This document shows positions 295 through 29,635 of a stretch of DNA of 33,077 bases, in pieces. Source of the DNA: a virus. The stretch is taken from the IMG/VR virus record IMGVR_UViG_3300012361_000008, positions 1 through 33,077 of that record; one strand, written 5' to 3'. How positions within the stretch are numbered: position 1 is the stretch's first letter; the number at the start of each line of letters is the position of its first letter. The notes under the pieces were generated by a model. The model was not told the origin of the DNA, searched no databases, and saw only the letters and a list, made by a program, of their open reading frames with translations. A program made the translations under genes and the position numbers.

Positions 295-756
295 GTGAGC
301 TCTAATCAGCAATGCCGCTGTGGCGGAATCACGTTTACGCTGCGTTACCTGAAGACGAATAATGGCGTCGGACAACAATGCGATAGGTGCGGGCGATTGA
401 TTGGCAGCTGGCTGCCTCATTCAGCAATCGCAGAGCCATCCCATTTGCCGGCTTGGATAGACGGCGCCGATGCCAGATTCCGAGATAGAAACGACGCGCG
501 CTCAAAACGAGTGGCGGCGTATGACGCCTATTTGGCAAGTCCGGAATGGCAAGCGAAACGACGCGACGTATTTAAGCGATGTGGTGGCATGTGCGAAGGC
601 TGCGCAAACGCAAAGGCAACTCAGGTCCATCATCTGACATACGCGCATTTGGGCTCAGAGCTGCTCTTTGAGCTAGTGGCCGTCTGCGATCTTTGTCATG
701 CACTCGCCCATTCATCGAACATCGCCGATATAGAACCTCCGCCGGAGCAAGAATAA
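295..756 (+). CDS. HNH endonuclease family protein with N-terminal zinc motif
   Basis: A 153-residue protein from a GTG start one base after the previous stop. Residues 7-32 hold a CxC...CxxC set that could bind zinc. Residues 79-139 match the phage HNH pattern: a YLASPEW helix, CEGC at 100-103, the HH pair at 112-113, an ELLFELVAVC segment and CDLCH at 131-135, with a last His at 139. HNH proteins are metal-dependent DNA nucleases, either free-standing homing enzymes or packaging or recombination accessories. Here it lies at the head of the replication module, so a role in DNA metabolism or homing is equally possible. The stop TAA overlaps the next ATG by one base. Confidence 0.8.
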   Translation: MSSNQQCRCGGITFTLRYLKTNNGVGQQCDRCGRLIGSWLPHSAIAEPSHLPAWIDGADARFRDRNDARSKRVAAYDAYLASPEWQAKRRDVFKRCGGMCEGCANAKATQVHHLTYAHLGSELLFELVAVCDLCHALAHSSNIADIEPPPEQE

Positions 757-1712
757 TGGCGGCCATCCTGCAATTTCGCAGCGCTGCAGGCGAGATGCGT
801 GACGTTGACGTGCAGGCGTTTGCCCGCACCCAGTACCCGGCGCTGATCCGCTCGGCCCACGATCAGGATTTCGAGGATCGCGCCTGGGTGAAGATCCAGC
901 AAAAGGACGCTCTTTACGGCGACGCGATGCCATGGGCGAAGACGCACGATCGGATCCGCTTCCGCCCGGGCGAGGTGACGGCATGGATCGGGCCGAACCG
1001 CGACGGCAAATCGCTCCTGCTCGGCTATCTGGCCGCGCATTGGGCGCTGCAGGAAACGCCTGTCACGATCTACTCGCTTGAGATGGACGTGGCGATGCAG
1101 TTAAAGCGGATCGCGCGGCAGCTGCTATGCACCGACAGCCCGAGCAAATCCGAATTCGAGATGCTGCTCGCGCGGCTCATCTATCTGAACTTCTTCGACT
1201 ACGTCGGCCATCTTGCGCCGCACGAGGTGCTGGCCGCCGTGAAATACGCCGGCGCTGGCACTTCATGCCGGCACATCATCGTGGACAACCTCACGCTGAT
1301 CGTGCCGCCCGGGCGCAACACGGACGAGAGCTCGGCTATTTTCGTGCGCGGATTGGTGGAGGTCGCGCGCGATACCGAATGCCATGTGCACCTGGTCGGG
1401 CACGTTCGCAAGCCGGAAGAGGATCGATTTTTGAATCGCTACGACTGGCGCGGCACCGGTGCCTGCCCGGACATGGTCCACAACGTCATCATCTTGCAAG
1501 CGAACGAGAAGAAGCGCCGGGCCACCGAGCGCGGCGATTTTTCGAAGGCGAAAGATCCGGACATCTGGATGACGGTCGATAAGCAGCGCAGCGGCGAATA
1601 CCACGGGCGCATGGGATTCTGGTGGAGGCCGACTGCGCTGCAGCTGGTCGAGTACGGTGGTGATGAGCCGAAGCGCTTCGACCCGGGGGATTTTTCGATT
1701 TGGGAGAGGTGA
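756..1712 (+). CDS. DnaB/T7-gp4-like replicative helicase ATPase domain
   Basis: A 318-residue RecA-fold ATPase starting at ATG 756, which overlaps the previous stop. Walker A is GPNRDGKS at residues 79-86. It is followed by a YSLEMD segment typical of DnaB-family motif H1a and a Walker B-like HIIVDN strand. The VGHVRKP segment resembles the helicase part of T7 gp4/Twinkle. There is no primase zinc or TOPRIM domain, so priming must come from the host or another gene. It probably unwinds DNA at the phage fork. The next gene is a replication initiator, coupled by a TGATG overlap, as in other phage initiator/helicase pairs. RadA-like activity is a less likely alternative. Confidence 0.85.
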   Translation: MAAILQFRSAAGEMRDVDVQAFARTQYPALIRSAHDQDFEDRAWVKIQQKDALYGDAMPWAKTHDRIRFRPGEVTAWIGPNRDGKSLLLGYLAAHWALQETPVTIYSLEMDVAMQLKRIARQLLCTDSPSKSEFEMLLARLIYLNFFDYVGHLAPHEVLAAVKYAGAGTSCRHIIVDNLTLIVPPGRNTDESSAIFVRGLVEVARDTECHVHLVGHVRKPEEDRFLNRYDWRGTGACPDMVHNVIILQANEKKRRATERGDFSKAKDPDIWMTVDKQRSGEYHGRMGFWWRPTALQLVEYGGDEPKRFDPGDFSIWER

Positions 1713-2458
1713 TGCCAGCGCGATACGTGCGCGAGAAAATGCTCGATAGCAAGCGTTATCACAAGGTCGGACTGATCGAGCGGCTGGCCTTTGTGGAATT
1801 GCTTCTGCTGGCCGATGATTTCGGCCTGGTGCAACTGGATCCGACGTTCCTATCGCGCCGCACAACGGCCTTCGTTGGCCTCAGTTCAGAGGCCACAGCG
1901 ACCAAAATAGACGCTATGGAGAAGGTGGATTTGATCAGGACATATGTTGTACAAGACGAGGCGTTCGCATGGATACCGAGAAACGGGTTTTTCAGGCGCG
2001 CAAAGCGTCCATCGCACCCGCTCCCGGATTTTGAGCTGCCTCATTACAAAGGAAGATTCAGCGAACTCAAGAAGTTAGCAGGAATTTGCAGTACAGATGC
2101 AGTGCAGATGCAACGCACACGCATTGCAGATGCATTGCACATGCAAACACCACCGTCTTCGTCACCGACACCGTCTTCGTCTTCTCTTCCCCTACAGCCC
2201 GATTTGTCCAACCAGTCGATTTCTGCCGAGGTCTGGTCATTTGGCGTCGAGTTGCTGAAGCGGGACGGGAAGAAGCCGCTTGACGATACCTCGGCGCGTT
2301 CGCTTCTCGGATCGTGGCTGAAAACTTGGTCGCCCGAGCTCGTGCTCGATGCGTGCCGAGCTGCCGTTGGCACGAACGATCCGAAGGCTTACGTTCGCGC
2401 CATACTTGGCAAAAAGCGGAAAGTCGGCGAGGCCGACCCTGCCGACCATTGGGATTGA
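1712..2458 (+). CDS. Phage replication initiator / replisome organizer (lambda O-like organisation)
   Basis: A 248-residue protein. ATG 1712 is chosen because it overlaps the helicase stop and has GGGAGAGG upstream; an in-frame TTG at 1700 is less likely. Residues 1-115 resemble the winged-helix N-terminal domain of phage replisome organizers (ERLAFVELLLLADDFG, then a DAMEKVDLIRTY segment). Residues about 125-168 are a low-complexity Ser/Pro linker. Residues 170-248 form a DnaD/DnaT-like helical domain ending in a basic KKRK. The DNA of the linker carries the 11-bp iterons, as in lambda O where the origin lies inside the initiator gene. The inferred role is to bind those repeats and load the adjacent helicase. 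Confidence 0.75.
   Translation: MPARYVREKMLDSKRYHKVGLIERLAFVELLLLADDFGLVQLDPTFLSRRTTAFVGLSSEATATKIDAMEKVDLIRTYVVQDEAFAWIPRNGFFRRAKRPSHPLPDFELPHYKGRFSELKKLAGICSTDAVQMQRTRIADALHMQTPPSSSPTPSSSSLPLQPDLSNQSISAEVWSFGVELLKRDGKKPLDDTSARSLLGSWLKTWSPELVLDACRAAVGTNDPKAYVRAILGKKRKVGEADPADHWD
2091..2145. repeat. Five tandem 11-bp iterons, candidate replication origin
   Basis: Five head-to-tail 11-bp units occupy 2091-2101, 2102-2112, 2113-2123, 2124-2134 and 2135-2145. The consensus is NTGCAGATGCA: GTACAGATGCA, GTGCAGATGCA, ACGCACACGCA, TTGCAGATGCA, TTGCACATGCA. A weaker half unit ending TTTGCA precedes them. Because 11 is not a multiple of three, the repeat does not produce a protein repeat, so it is conserved at DNA level. 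Eleven bases also puts each site about one helical turn apart. The position inside the initiator gene matches the iteron origin of lambda. Confidence 0.75.
2151..2181. repeat. 13-bp direct repeat in a pyrimidine-rich tract beside the iterons
   Basis: CACCGTCTTCGTC occurs exactly at 2151-2163 and again at 2169-2181, within a strand that is almost all C and T up to about 2192. The 18-base period keeps frame and encodes the Ser/Pro linker, so it may be only a coding repeat. Its position directly after the iterons makes a strand-opening element possible. Confidence 0.4.
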
Positions 2459-2461
2459 AAA

Positions 2462-2944
2462 GTGGCTGAGCCAATCAGCTTCACCATCCGCGGCCAGCCG
2501 TGCAGCAAAGCGAACAGCCGGCGCATCGTCACCCTCAAGCGCGGGGAGGAAAACGTGCGTATCGCGGTCGTTAAATCGAAAGAAGCGCTCGCCTACGAAC
2601 GCGATGCCCTGCGCCAGATTCCGGCCGCCGCACGCCAACGCCTCGAAGGTCCGGTCGCCGTGACGATTCGGATCTGGTACGCGAGCGAGCGGCCGGATCT
2701 GGACGAATCGATCATCCTCGACTGCCTGCAGGATCGATTCCACCGGCTCAGCGCCAAGGGCCCGCGCGTGCTGCTACAGGCCGGCGTTTATCGCAACGAC
2801 CGCCAGGTGCGCGAGAAGCACATTTTCCATGCCATCGAGCACGCCAATCCGCGCGCCGAAATCAGCGTCACCGCTTTGACCCCGCAGCAGCCCGGCCTGC
2901 CGCTGCCGGATCCAGAGGACCTGGCCGCCGAAATATTCGGATAA
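2462..2944 (+). CDS. rusA-like: RusA-like Holliday junction resolvase
   Basis: A 160-residue protein from GTG 2462, three bases after the initiator stop. It opens with a FTIRGQPCSKANSRR segment typical of RusA family members. It then carries an acidic cluster RPDLDESIILDCLQD and a later RNDRQVREKH segment, where the Asp residues fit the metal-binding set of RusA. RusA dimers cut four-way junctions, and in phages they resolve recombination intermediates before packaging. Its place behind the initiator supports that job. Length is slightly above the usual 120-140 residues because of a Pro-rich C-terminal tail. Confidence 0.8.
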   Translation: MAEPISFTIRGQPCSKANSRRIVTLKRGEENVRIAVVKSKEALAYERDALRQIPAAARQRLEGPVAVTIRIWYASERPDLDESIILDCLQDRFHRLSAKGPRVLLQAGVYRNDRQVREKHIFHAIEHANPRAEISVTALTPQQPGLPLPDPEDLAAEIFG

Positions 2945-26789: not shown

Positions 26790-26913
26790 GTCGGCGATCG
26801 ATCATTACTTGAATGGCGACCCGCATGACTTCGTTCCTCTTTCGATTCATCTCGATAATCTCGAAAAGATAGAGGCGAATGGTGGACATCATCGAACAGC
26901 TTCGCAGGGATGA
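26737..26913 (+). CDS. Possible 58-residue protein overlapping tailspike and lysozyme
   Basis: ATG 26737 has a textbook AGGAGG at 26726-26731 with a five-base spacer, inside the tailspike 3' end in another frame. The product includes SAIDHYLNGDPHDFVPLSI and HLDNLEKIEANGG, which look protein-like across the 89-base gap (26790-26878). It ends 35 bases inside the lysozyme. The gap otherwise would be the only gene-free spot in this operon. No homolog is known; the strong ribosome site could also serve only to keep the operon translated into the lysozyme. Confidence 0.5.
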   Translation: MWSLGQQPPQPTSRTSIESAIDHYLNGDPHDFVPLSIHLDNLEKIEANGGHHRTASQG

Positions 26914-27289
26914 GGGCGTGCGCTTAAAGCCATACACCGATACGGTGGGTAGGCTCACTGTGGGAGTGGGCAGAAACCTGACCGACGTCGGACTGTCGGA
27001 TGACGAGGTCGATTACCTGCTCGCCAACGACGTGAAGCGCGCGCAGGACGGCCTCGCGCAGTTCGCTTGGTATGCGGGGCTCGATCCGGTGCGGCAGGGT
27101 GCGTGCGTCAATCTCGCATTCAATCTTGGCATCGCGGGGCTTTTGCATTTTCCGCACTTCATCGTCGCCATGTCGCATGGCGACTGGCCCGAAGCAGTGG
27201 CTCAGTTACACGATTCGATCTGGGCGAGACAAGTAGGGGACAGAGCTATTCGCTTGGAGCAGCAAATCCTGAGTGGCGAATGGGTTTGA
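26879..27289 (+). CDS. Phage lysozyme (GH24 muramidase, T4-lysozyme-like)
   Basis: A 136-residue enzyme that cuts the beta-1,4 bond between MurNAc and GlcNAc in peptidoglycan. It begins VDIIEQLRRDEGVRLKPYTD and continues TVGRLTVGVGRNLTD. Glu12, Asp21 and Thr27 match the catalytic triad of T4 lysozyme (Glu11, Asp20, Thr26). The end matches family GDRAIRLEQQIL. There is no signal peptide, so release needs a holin. GAGG at 26871-26874 is its ribosome site. The holin gene of this module, just downstream, is interrupted. Confidence 0.92.
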   Translation: MVDIIEQLRRDEGVRLKPYTDTVGRLTVGVGRNLTDVGLSDDEVDYLLANDVKRAQDGLAQFAWYAGLDPVRQGACVNLAFNLGIAGLLHFPHFIVAMSHGDWPEAVAQLHDSIWARQVGDRAIRLEQQILSGEWV

Positions 27290-28632: not shown

Positions 28633-29168
28633 TTTCTCGCGACCGCCGCAACGGTTTCGGCGTTGATGCTGGCCGTGCTCTGGCTGTGCCGGGTGCTGCC
28701 CAGCCAGAAGTTCAGCACTTGCGTGTAGCCGGCCCCCAGTGACCCGATCAGGATCAGGAACGCCTGATTCTCGGTGACATCGACCCCCGCCAGCATGGCC
28801 GACAGGATCCCGAGAAACCCTAGCGTGATGATGATCGAAAGCACTGCTGGCACTGGGGAGGGCTTGGCGACCTGCATCTGACGCGCGCCCTCTACGTCCT
28901 GCAGCTGCATCCTCTCCAAATCGACGTCCAGGGCCTTCATCTTGGCCTGGAAGTCCTGATCGGCCTTCTTCAGGCTCGCGATCTGCTCGCCAGTGAGCTG
29001 GCCGTTGACGATTGCCTGTTCGATCTTGTCGGTTGAGCCGTCGCCACCCGTGATCCCTAGCGCCGACTCGATGGCAGACACTGCCATGCCGGCAACCGGG
29101 GTGCCGACCGCCGATGCAATGGTTGGCGCGATACGCTCTATGAATGCAAGCCAAGCGGGAGTGCCCAT
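28629..29168 (-). CDS. Two-TM holin-like membrane protein
   Basis: A 179-residue protein starting at ATG 29168, overlapping the lysin stop by one base (TGATG). Residues 50-100 are a charged amphipathic helix ending LQDVEGARQMQ. Residues about 105-127 (PVPAVLSIIITLGFLGILSA) and 134-157 (NQAFLILIGSLGAGYTQVLN) are TM helices, followed by a polar WLGSTRHSQ tail. This LGAGYTQVLNFWLGS ending is familiar from holin-like proteins of proteobacterial phages. It differs from the broken holin on the plus strand. It likely makes the inner-membrane holes that release the adjacent endolysin. Confidence 0.75.
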   Translation of the reverse strand: MGTPAWLAFIERIAPTIASAVGTPVAGMAVSAIESALGITGGDGSTDKIEQAIVNGQLTGEQIASLKKADQDFQAKMKALDVDLERMQLQDVEGARQMQVAKPSPVPAVLSIIITLGFLGILSAMLAGVDVTENQAFLILIGSLGAGYTQVLNFWLGSTRHSQSTASINAETVAAVARK

Positions 29169-29635
29169 CAGGCTACCGCCGGCGCATCCAGCGCGGCCAG
29201 ATTGTGGGCGCGCATGATGCTGATGAGCTTGTCACTGTATGAAGGATCGGTGGCATAGCCGGCCGCCTGCACCGCTCGGGCGAATTCCTCGCCGTTCGCC
29301 GCCTCGAAGCAGTGCGCGTAGCGCGGATGCGACAGGAAGTCATCGTGATCCTCGAGACACGATTCGAAATCCCGATACTTGCGCCAGTAGGCCGGCACCA
29401 TGATCCAGCCACGATCGGAAGTCCATTCGCGCGTATCCATCGAAACACGCTCGCCCAGCCACGCCGGATCCGCCTTGACCCCGAAAAGGTTGAACGCTTC
29501 GACGGCCAAGCGGGAATGCCCCCAGCCCGACTCGAGCGCGGCCTCGGCGACCGTGAAGCTGGCCGGAACCCTGGTTTTCGCCTGCGCTGCTTGCGCCGGC
29601 CCGGACATCGCGGCGATGAATTCGGCTGGCGTCAT
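29168..29635 (-). CDS. Peptidoglycan hydrolase, GH73/FlgJ-like glucosaminidase
   Basis: A 155-residue enzyme with GGAGG before ATG 29635. VAEAALESGWGHSRLAVEAFN at residues 28-48 contains the catalytic Glu35 of the GH73 family, followed by NLFGVKADPAW. YRKYRDFESCLEDHDDFL and an RYAHC...A..AGYATDPSYSDKL end complete the fold. It hydrolyses the GlcNAc-MurNAc bond. No signal sequence is present, so it should be released by the holin-like protein encoded next. Together they form a second lysis cassette, opposite in direction to the GH24 lysozyme. Confidence 0.88.
   Translation of the reverse strand: MTPAEFIAAMSGPAQAAQAKTRVPASFTVAEAALESGWGHSRLAVEAFNLFGVKADPAWLGERVSMDTREWTSDRGWIMVPAYWRKYRDFESCLEDHDDFLSHPRYAHCFEAANGEEFARAVQAAGYATDPSYSDKLISIMRAHNLAALDAPAVA

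Follow-up and report, generated by a model that had tools for sequence, protein, structure and literature searches.

A tandem array of palindromic 11-bp iterons inside a phage initiator-like gene: a probable replication origin and its counterparts in related phages

The initiator-like gene and the repeats in its linker

The window, i.e. the whole stretch of DNA analysed here (33,077 bases), corresponds to an entire IMG/VR virus record. Its replication region (Table 1) comprises adjacent genes for a replicative helicase, an initiator-like protein and a Holliday junction resolvase, with an HNH gene farther upstream of the helicase gene; terminase, portal, major head and head-closure genes follow. 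Elsewhere in the window, two dissimilar endolysin-like genes are encoded on opposite strands (26879-27289, plus strand; 29168-29635, minus strand).

Table 1. Coordinates of the genes, domains and repeats in the replication region of the window
Feature	Position	Strand	Basis or remark
DnaB/RecA-type replicative helicase gene, directly upstream	756..1712	+	PF13481, E-value 2e-13; phrog_239, E-value 2.5e-33
Initiator-like gene, 248 aa: N-terminal winged-helix domain, linker, C-terminal domain	1712..2458	+	profile and homolog matches, AF2 model
N-terminal domain, residues 1-108, proposed iteron binder	1712..2035	+	alignments, covariation, fold search
Residues 94 and 96	1991-1993, 1997-1999	+	align with specificity-linked columns
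Iteron 1	2087..2097	+	TGCAGTACAGA; dyad pairs 3/4
Iteron 2	2098..2108	+	TGCAGTGCAGA; dyad pairs 4/4
Iteron 3	2109..2119	+	TGCAACGCACA; dyad pairs 3/4
Iteron 4	2120..2130	+	CGCATTGCAGA; dyad pairs 3/4
Iteron 5	2131..2141	+	TGCATTGCACA; dyad pairs 4/4; followed by a TGCA half-site, 2142-2145
Second tract, imperfect hexamers (CGTCTT/CGTCAC/CGACAC...), strand-asymmetric, C/T rich	2148..2189	+	lag 6, TRF period 6
C-terminal domain, probably a helicase or loader contact	2219..2458	+	inferred from relatives; weak match to phrog_38541
RusA-like Holliday junction resolvase gene, directly downstream	2462..2944	+	PF05866, E-value 1.6e-6; phrog_140, E-value 7.7e-10

The initiator-like protein exhibits a weak similarity to phrog_1408, annotated as "replication initiation protein" (E-value 0.043), and matches none of the O-like families in PHROGs and Pfam up to an E-value of 1; a sequence-profile search of the PDB reported nothing useful. 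The assignment of its N-terminal domain to the type found in phrog_1408/2149/5810, weak when made directly, is stronger through the relative L044, which is 24% identical to the window protein over the full length of the domain (E-value 4e-7, a single pair), itself matches phrog_5810 at 1e-27, and thereby ties the window domain to these replication initiation proteins. The AF2 model of the domain (pLDDT 76) reveals helices and a wing arranged as in the winged-helix fold, and the fold search identified generic winged helices with E-values above 0.05, among them, weakly, the N-terminal domains of initiators (4pql/4pt7). The C-terminal domain is predicted to contact the helicase or its loader because relatives join a related N-terminal domain to DnaD-like or O-like C-terminal domains, the latter being present in some of them.

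The linker between the two domains contains five tandem 11-bp units (2087-2141), all of which agree exactly with the motif YGCANNRCASA. Without mismatches this motif occurs five times in the 33,077 bases, every time inside the array, and with one mismatch allowed it is no more frequent in the whole record than expected by chance. TRF called period 11 at 2094-2145 and period 22 at 2097-2145. The array matches itself at lag 11 in 34 of 44 positions, a value reached by 0/2,000 codon-order shuffles of the initiator gene (maximum 28) and 0/2,000 synonymous, protein-preserving shuffles (maximum 31), and among all lags from 7 to 40 across the entire 33-kb record, the strongest tandem periodicity is that of lag 11 at position 2087. 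Since the array exceeds both kinds of shuffles, it is a feature of the DNA level; moreover, 11 is not a multiple of three, so the array is not a simple protein repeat. The preliminary description of this DNA had argued in the same way that the frame shifts with each unit, and it had reported five tandem units in the initiator gene at 2091-2145, which is the identical array in another phase; the best phasing is 2087-2141. It had not included the palindrome: each unit is an imperfect 9-bp inverted repeat, TGCA-n-TGCA, with 17/20 dyad pairs over the five units, a score that sets of five 9-mers picked at random from the gene reached in 0/200,000 trials and that is visible in just one of the 11 possible unit phases, that of 2087-2141. 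Both the array and its palindromic units are solid as sequence facts.

The array is followed, two bases beyond the half-site, by a second tandem tract (20/30 matches at lag 6, equalled by 0/200 codon shuffles), which is equally solid as a fact of the sequence. The tract is not AT-rich, so that the array is not flanked by an AT-rich unwinding element, and the average instability of its duplex corresponds to the 45th percentile within the gene, compared with a family median of 0.91. The second tracts of the family are on average less stable than the remainder of the gene, while that of the window is not; an unwinding element was considered and rejected as an explanation for the window tract, although it suits the family average.

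Relatives of the initiator gene and the DNA words they carry

A tblastn search of phages with the window protein identified no relative, and neither did pattern scans of viral and genome collections. L044 was found by a DNA-pattern search, hence the TGCnnnGCA common to L044 and the window is not an independent observation. Searches with protein sequences only, starting from L044, revealed six viral loci and then 57, plus two gut phages, cultured phages and prophages; all relatives other than L044 were thus picked by protein similarity, without selection for repeats. The DNA-pattern scan also reported initiator genes in viral contigs together with many non-initiator matches in bacterial genomes, therefore possession of the motif does not by itself identify an initiator gene, and these matches were given no statistical weight. 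In Paraburkholderia, Mariniblastus and a Gemmatimonadetes bin (L045, L058, L062, L063), 11-bp tandem repeats of the GCA type (GCAAACGCATC and similar ones) lie within or next to genes that were not identified as initiators, and one Chloroflexota bin (L037, L041, L043, L048, L064) contains a dispersed repeat, GTGCCCACGGG...CATGCAGAGCACATGCAGAGCAC, not recognised inside initiator genes. Initiators of the DUF1376 type (L003, L005, L010, L018) and of the Lin1244 type (L028) likewise contain GCA units of 11 bp with short tandem tracts behind them (hexamers of AACGTC, pentamers of AAAGG), but being motif-found they are not independent. In E. coli Rac ydaU (DUF1376) we found no clear 11-bp array.

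A 10- or 11-bp array (threshold: at least 19/30 matches) lies right after the N-terminal winged-helix domain in 36 of 50 non-redundant genes that encode a relative of this domain. A column-permutation test over the 36 arrays supports palindromy with a combined p of 2.7e-13, kinship ignored; the scan also picked up a few second-tract repeats, which are counted among the 36 and dilute the signal instead of producing it. The place and the period are kept and the word is not: the unit is TGCnnnGCA in the window, L044 and L075, TGACnGTCA in L074 and L079, TGCCnGGCA in L080, TG(A/C)nn(G/T)CA at 10-bp spacing in L081, L105, L113 and others, and TCACnGTGA at 10-bp spacing in 17 genes, and further types include TTGCGGCGA at 10-bp spacing and CCCGGG-type units. 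The cultured phages Butters and Raymond7 carry four 11-bp TCGCGA units in the initiator gene, with a similar array in Fishburne, while no array was seen in L145, L084, L086 and L119. A prophage in a bacterial genome (L160) has one of the cleanest arrays seen, with seven 11-bp units (GGAACATGTGG/TTC, palindrome GAACATGTTC) in the linker of its initiator gene. The preliminary description had asked whether relatives retain the period but not the unit sequence; this is borne out, with a period of either 10 or 11 bp.

In most relatives a shorter tandem tract with a period of 5-8 bp follows the array at the corresponding position, and in 39/50 genes it is significant against codon shuffles at lag 6, 7 or 12. 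Period 6 is found in the window and many others, period 7 in L093, L094, L096, L103, L104, L106 and L123 and, as GGGAACA, in Streptomyces phages, period 8 (GGGGAACA) in several mycobacterio- and Gordonia phages, and period 5 (GAACA) in the Paenibacillus phage Bert; for periods of 5, 7 and 8, a simple repeat at the protein level is impossible. This two-part layout of the linker is common to cultured phages of Mycobacterium, Gordonia, Streptomyces and Paenibacillus. In the Gordonia phage ClubL (L141) and in L135-L138 and L140, the GGGGAACA tract, with up to ~7 copies, lies inside genes annotated as replication initiation genes of mycobacterio- and Gordonia phages. A GC-rich inverted repeat is often present after the second tract, as in the linkers of L088 (e.g. 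TATGCGCGCAAGCGCGC), L102, L116 and L129.

The unit sequence co-varies with the N-terminal DNA-binding domain, as had been anticipated, although this is to be read as a correlation. Over 43 genes classed by hand, the column of window R96 contains Gln in 17/17 genes with TCACnGTGA and Arg in 26/26 others, and the split holds across close pairs with 72-82% identity (82% for L094/L097). Gln96 goes with TCACnGTGA, Arg96 with TG..CA or TTGCGGC units, and Arg94 with an inner C-N-G. An automatic count over 59 genes reported CACnGTG cores in 18/20 genes with Gln96/Arg94 (the remaining two lack an array), the expected words in 10/11 with Arg96/Arg94 (TTGCGGC in 7, inner C-N-G in 3), and TG..CA in 23/28 with Arg96 but not Arg94, none of which has CACnGTG. 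An automatic rule for CCCGGG proved too permissive and misfiled L102, L107 and L129, a problem from which the simpler 59-gene count is free. Twelve sequences outside the discovery alignment were added, of which 11 fit: L067 (Gln96), L132, L143 and L144 (Arg96/Arg94), and L066, L146, L147 and L152-L155 (Arg96, not Arg94); the twelfth, L145, has no array. The blind independent tests number fewer than 11, because the arrays of L066, L067 and L132 were known before the rule was applied and L147/L155 and L143/L144 are near-identical pairs. The tree places five changes in the DNA state and five in Gln96, with none running in opposite directions; well-supported independent switches number only ~3, too few for significance (tree-corrected sign test, p ~0.25). 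Residues 94 and 96 of the window itself are placed with less certainty, since it lies on a very long branch. We regard the apparent two-residue recognition code as a well-supported correlation.

The sole close homolog of the window initiator was found in L189, whose terminase is 87% identical to that of the window and whose initiator is 55% identical over the N-terminal domain (E-value 6e-46), with Arg at 96 and a residue other than Arg at 94 (aligned by eye). A strong array was expected in this closest homolog, but its linker exhibits only ~2.5 weak 11-bp units, followed by a long GACTTC tract. L180 is even closer in its terminase (95%) and RusA (90%), yet the corresponding slot is occupied by an unlike initiator-like gene, DUF1376-like by eye, which indicates that the replication module is exchanged between close relatives. 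Comparison of L180 (2883-4165) with the window (295-2458) reveals that the module between HNH and RusA has been swapped for the other initiator-like gene and a further gene.

The array as a putative origin of replication

The feature that defines in-gene iteron origins, a tandem set of iterons located in the coding sequence of the initiator itself, is present here, and the genomic neighborhood is that of DNA replication: the window helicase gene is linked to the initiator gene, as is DnaB in L116 and DnaC in L044, and DnaB, DnaC, RecT and SSB genes adjoin the initiator genes of relatives. We therefore consider it highly probable that the array is the core of the phage replication origin, with the N-terminal domain binding its units and the helicase being brought in. 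That the array functions as the origin, as the preliminary description had proposed, is very probably correct, judging from the period and covariation in relatives and from the replicative gene context (helicase, RusA). The cumulative GC-skew minimum that had been predicted near 2.1 kb was looked for and is absent, hence GC skew gives no support to the origin reading. The winged-helix domain, probably in dimeric form, would bind every one of the palindromic 11-bp units, and this binding is suggested indirectly by the co-variation of the unit sequence with residues 94/96. Bound copies would all be located on the same side of the helix, their sites being one turn apart, and the C-terminal domain would then recruit the helicase encoded by the adjacent gene. 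The second tract (2148-2189) could serve for strand opening or as the site where the helicase or the initiator grips single-stranded DNA.

The sequence data would also fit an operator, at which the protein binds its own gene and shuts off transcription of the replication operon, with replication starting elsewhere: transcription would be blocked by the bound winged-helix protein, and operators are typically palindromic. Nonetheless, five helically phased units ~0.4 kb into a gene, accompanied by a second tandem tract, would be unusual for an operator, the neighbors are helicase, loader, RecT and SSB genes, and the well-studied in-gene arrays of phage initiators are origins, so we regard this explanation as improbable. 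Still less probable is that the repeats are functionless products of slippage in a loosely constrained linker. Linkers do tolerate repeats, and some bacterial genomes contain similar 11-bp GCA repeats outside initiator genes, but neutral slippage does not predict units that have diverged while the palindrome was kept, nor a period of 10-11 bp maintained across diverged genes while the sequence tracks two protein residues.

The least probable of the explanations considered, to which we attach very little credence, takes the array for a partition centromere of the parC/tubC kind, to which a DNA-binding adaptor would attach. Partition sites are likewise composed of short-period iterons. In addition, HHpred matched the replication protein of another phage to TubR (PMC7924643). 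However, none of the window genes searched (a subset of the ORFs) matches the ParA, ParM or TubZ families, the array sits in a gene between those of the helicase and RusA, and mycobacteriophage repA alone supports plasmid replication, with parS dispensable (PMC7157519; the RepA proteins concerned may or may not belong to the present family).

Relation to known origins and implications

In-gene iteron origins are already known (lambda O, SPP1 gp38, TP901-1). The comparison with lambda drawn in the preliminary description holds, as its ori lies inside gene O and each iteron is a 19-bp imperfect inverted repeat (PMC7466680). The likeness consists in iterons placed inside the initiator gene, each an imperfect inverted repeat; however, lambda has 4 iterons with a 19-bp inverted repeat and an adjacent AT-rich region, whereas in the window palindromes of 9 bp recur at 11-bp intervals, the hexamer tract is not rich in AT, and the protein has no significant match to O-like families. 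In SPP1, oriL lies in gene 38 and consists of direct repeats bound by the gene's own product (PMC6316719); the likeness is one of layout, but SPP1 has an AT-rich DUE and a second origin, oriR. As no AT-rich element adjoins its array, we classify the window locus as a variant rather than a lambda-type or SPP1-type origin. The replisome organizers ORF13 of TP901-1 and Rep2009 of Tuc2009 bind direct repeats in their own genes, which constitute the origin (PMC8965321), a likeness drawn from the published description.

Mycobacteriophage repA with its flanks (Miko, Rachaly, Jeeves) supports plasmid replication, and the authors suggested an origin either in repA or upstream of it, having found the region they examined to be free of repeats (PMC7157519); these RepA proteins are compared by description only, while other actinophages, Butters, Raymond7 and Fishburne, have the in-gene TCGCGA arrays at 11 bp. 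In the RepA_N system of the PLE satellite, the origin and the DNA-binding domain co-vary and swap as a module and the iterons are semi-palindromic (PMC8263062), but there are three of them, of ~30 bp, and they are intergenic. Among open-licence papers we found none on the literal GGAACAGG repeat, and none on the palindrome scheme, the second tract or the two-residue code; these three seem to be new, although an earlier description is possible.

The broader proposition is that phage initiators of a large family are encoded together with their own binding site, in the form of 10- or 11-bp palindromic units inside the gene, with the word set mainly by residues 94/96, which follow the wing, and the second tract belonging to the origin; it appears to us evenly balanced between true and false. 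For most phages from the environment, the gut and actinobacteria, the origin has yet to be mapped, and the layout described here predicts an origin from sequence alone across a broad family, cultured phages included. The second tract, with its period of 5 to 8 bp, suggests an additional origin element. As the binder and its site lie in one gene, natural variation supplies many matched protein-DNA pairs, and in the added sequences the DNA word could already be predicted from two protein positions. If the proposition is true, each such gene would record a protein and its target together, and the recognition code could be read directly from genomes.
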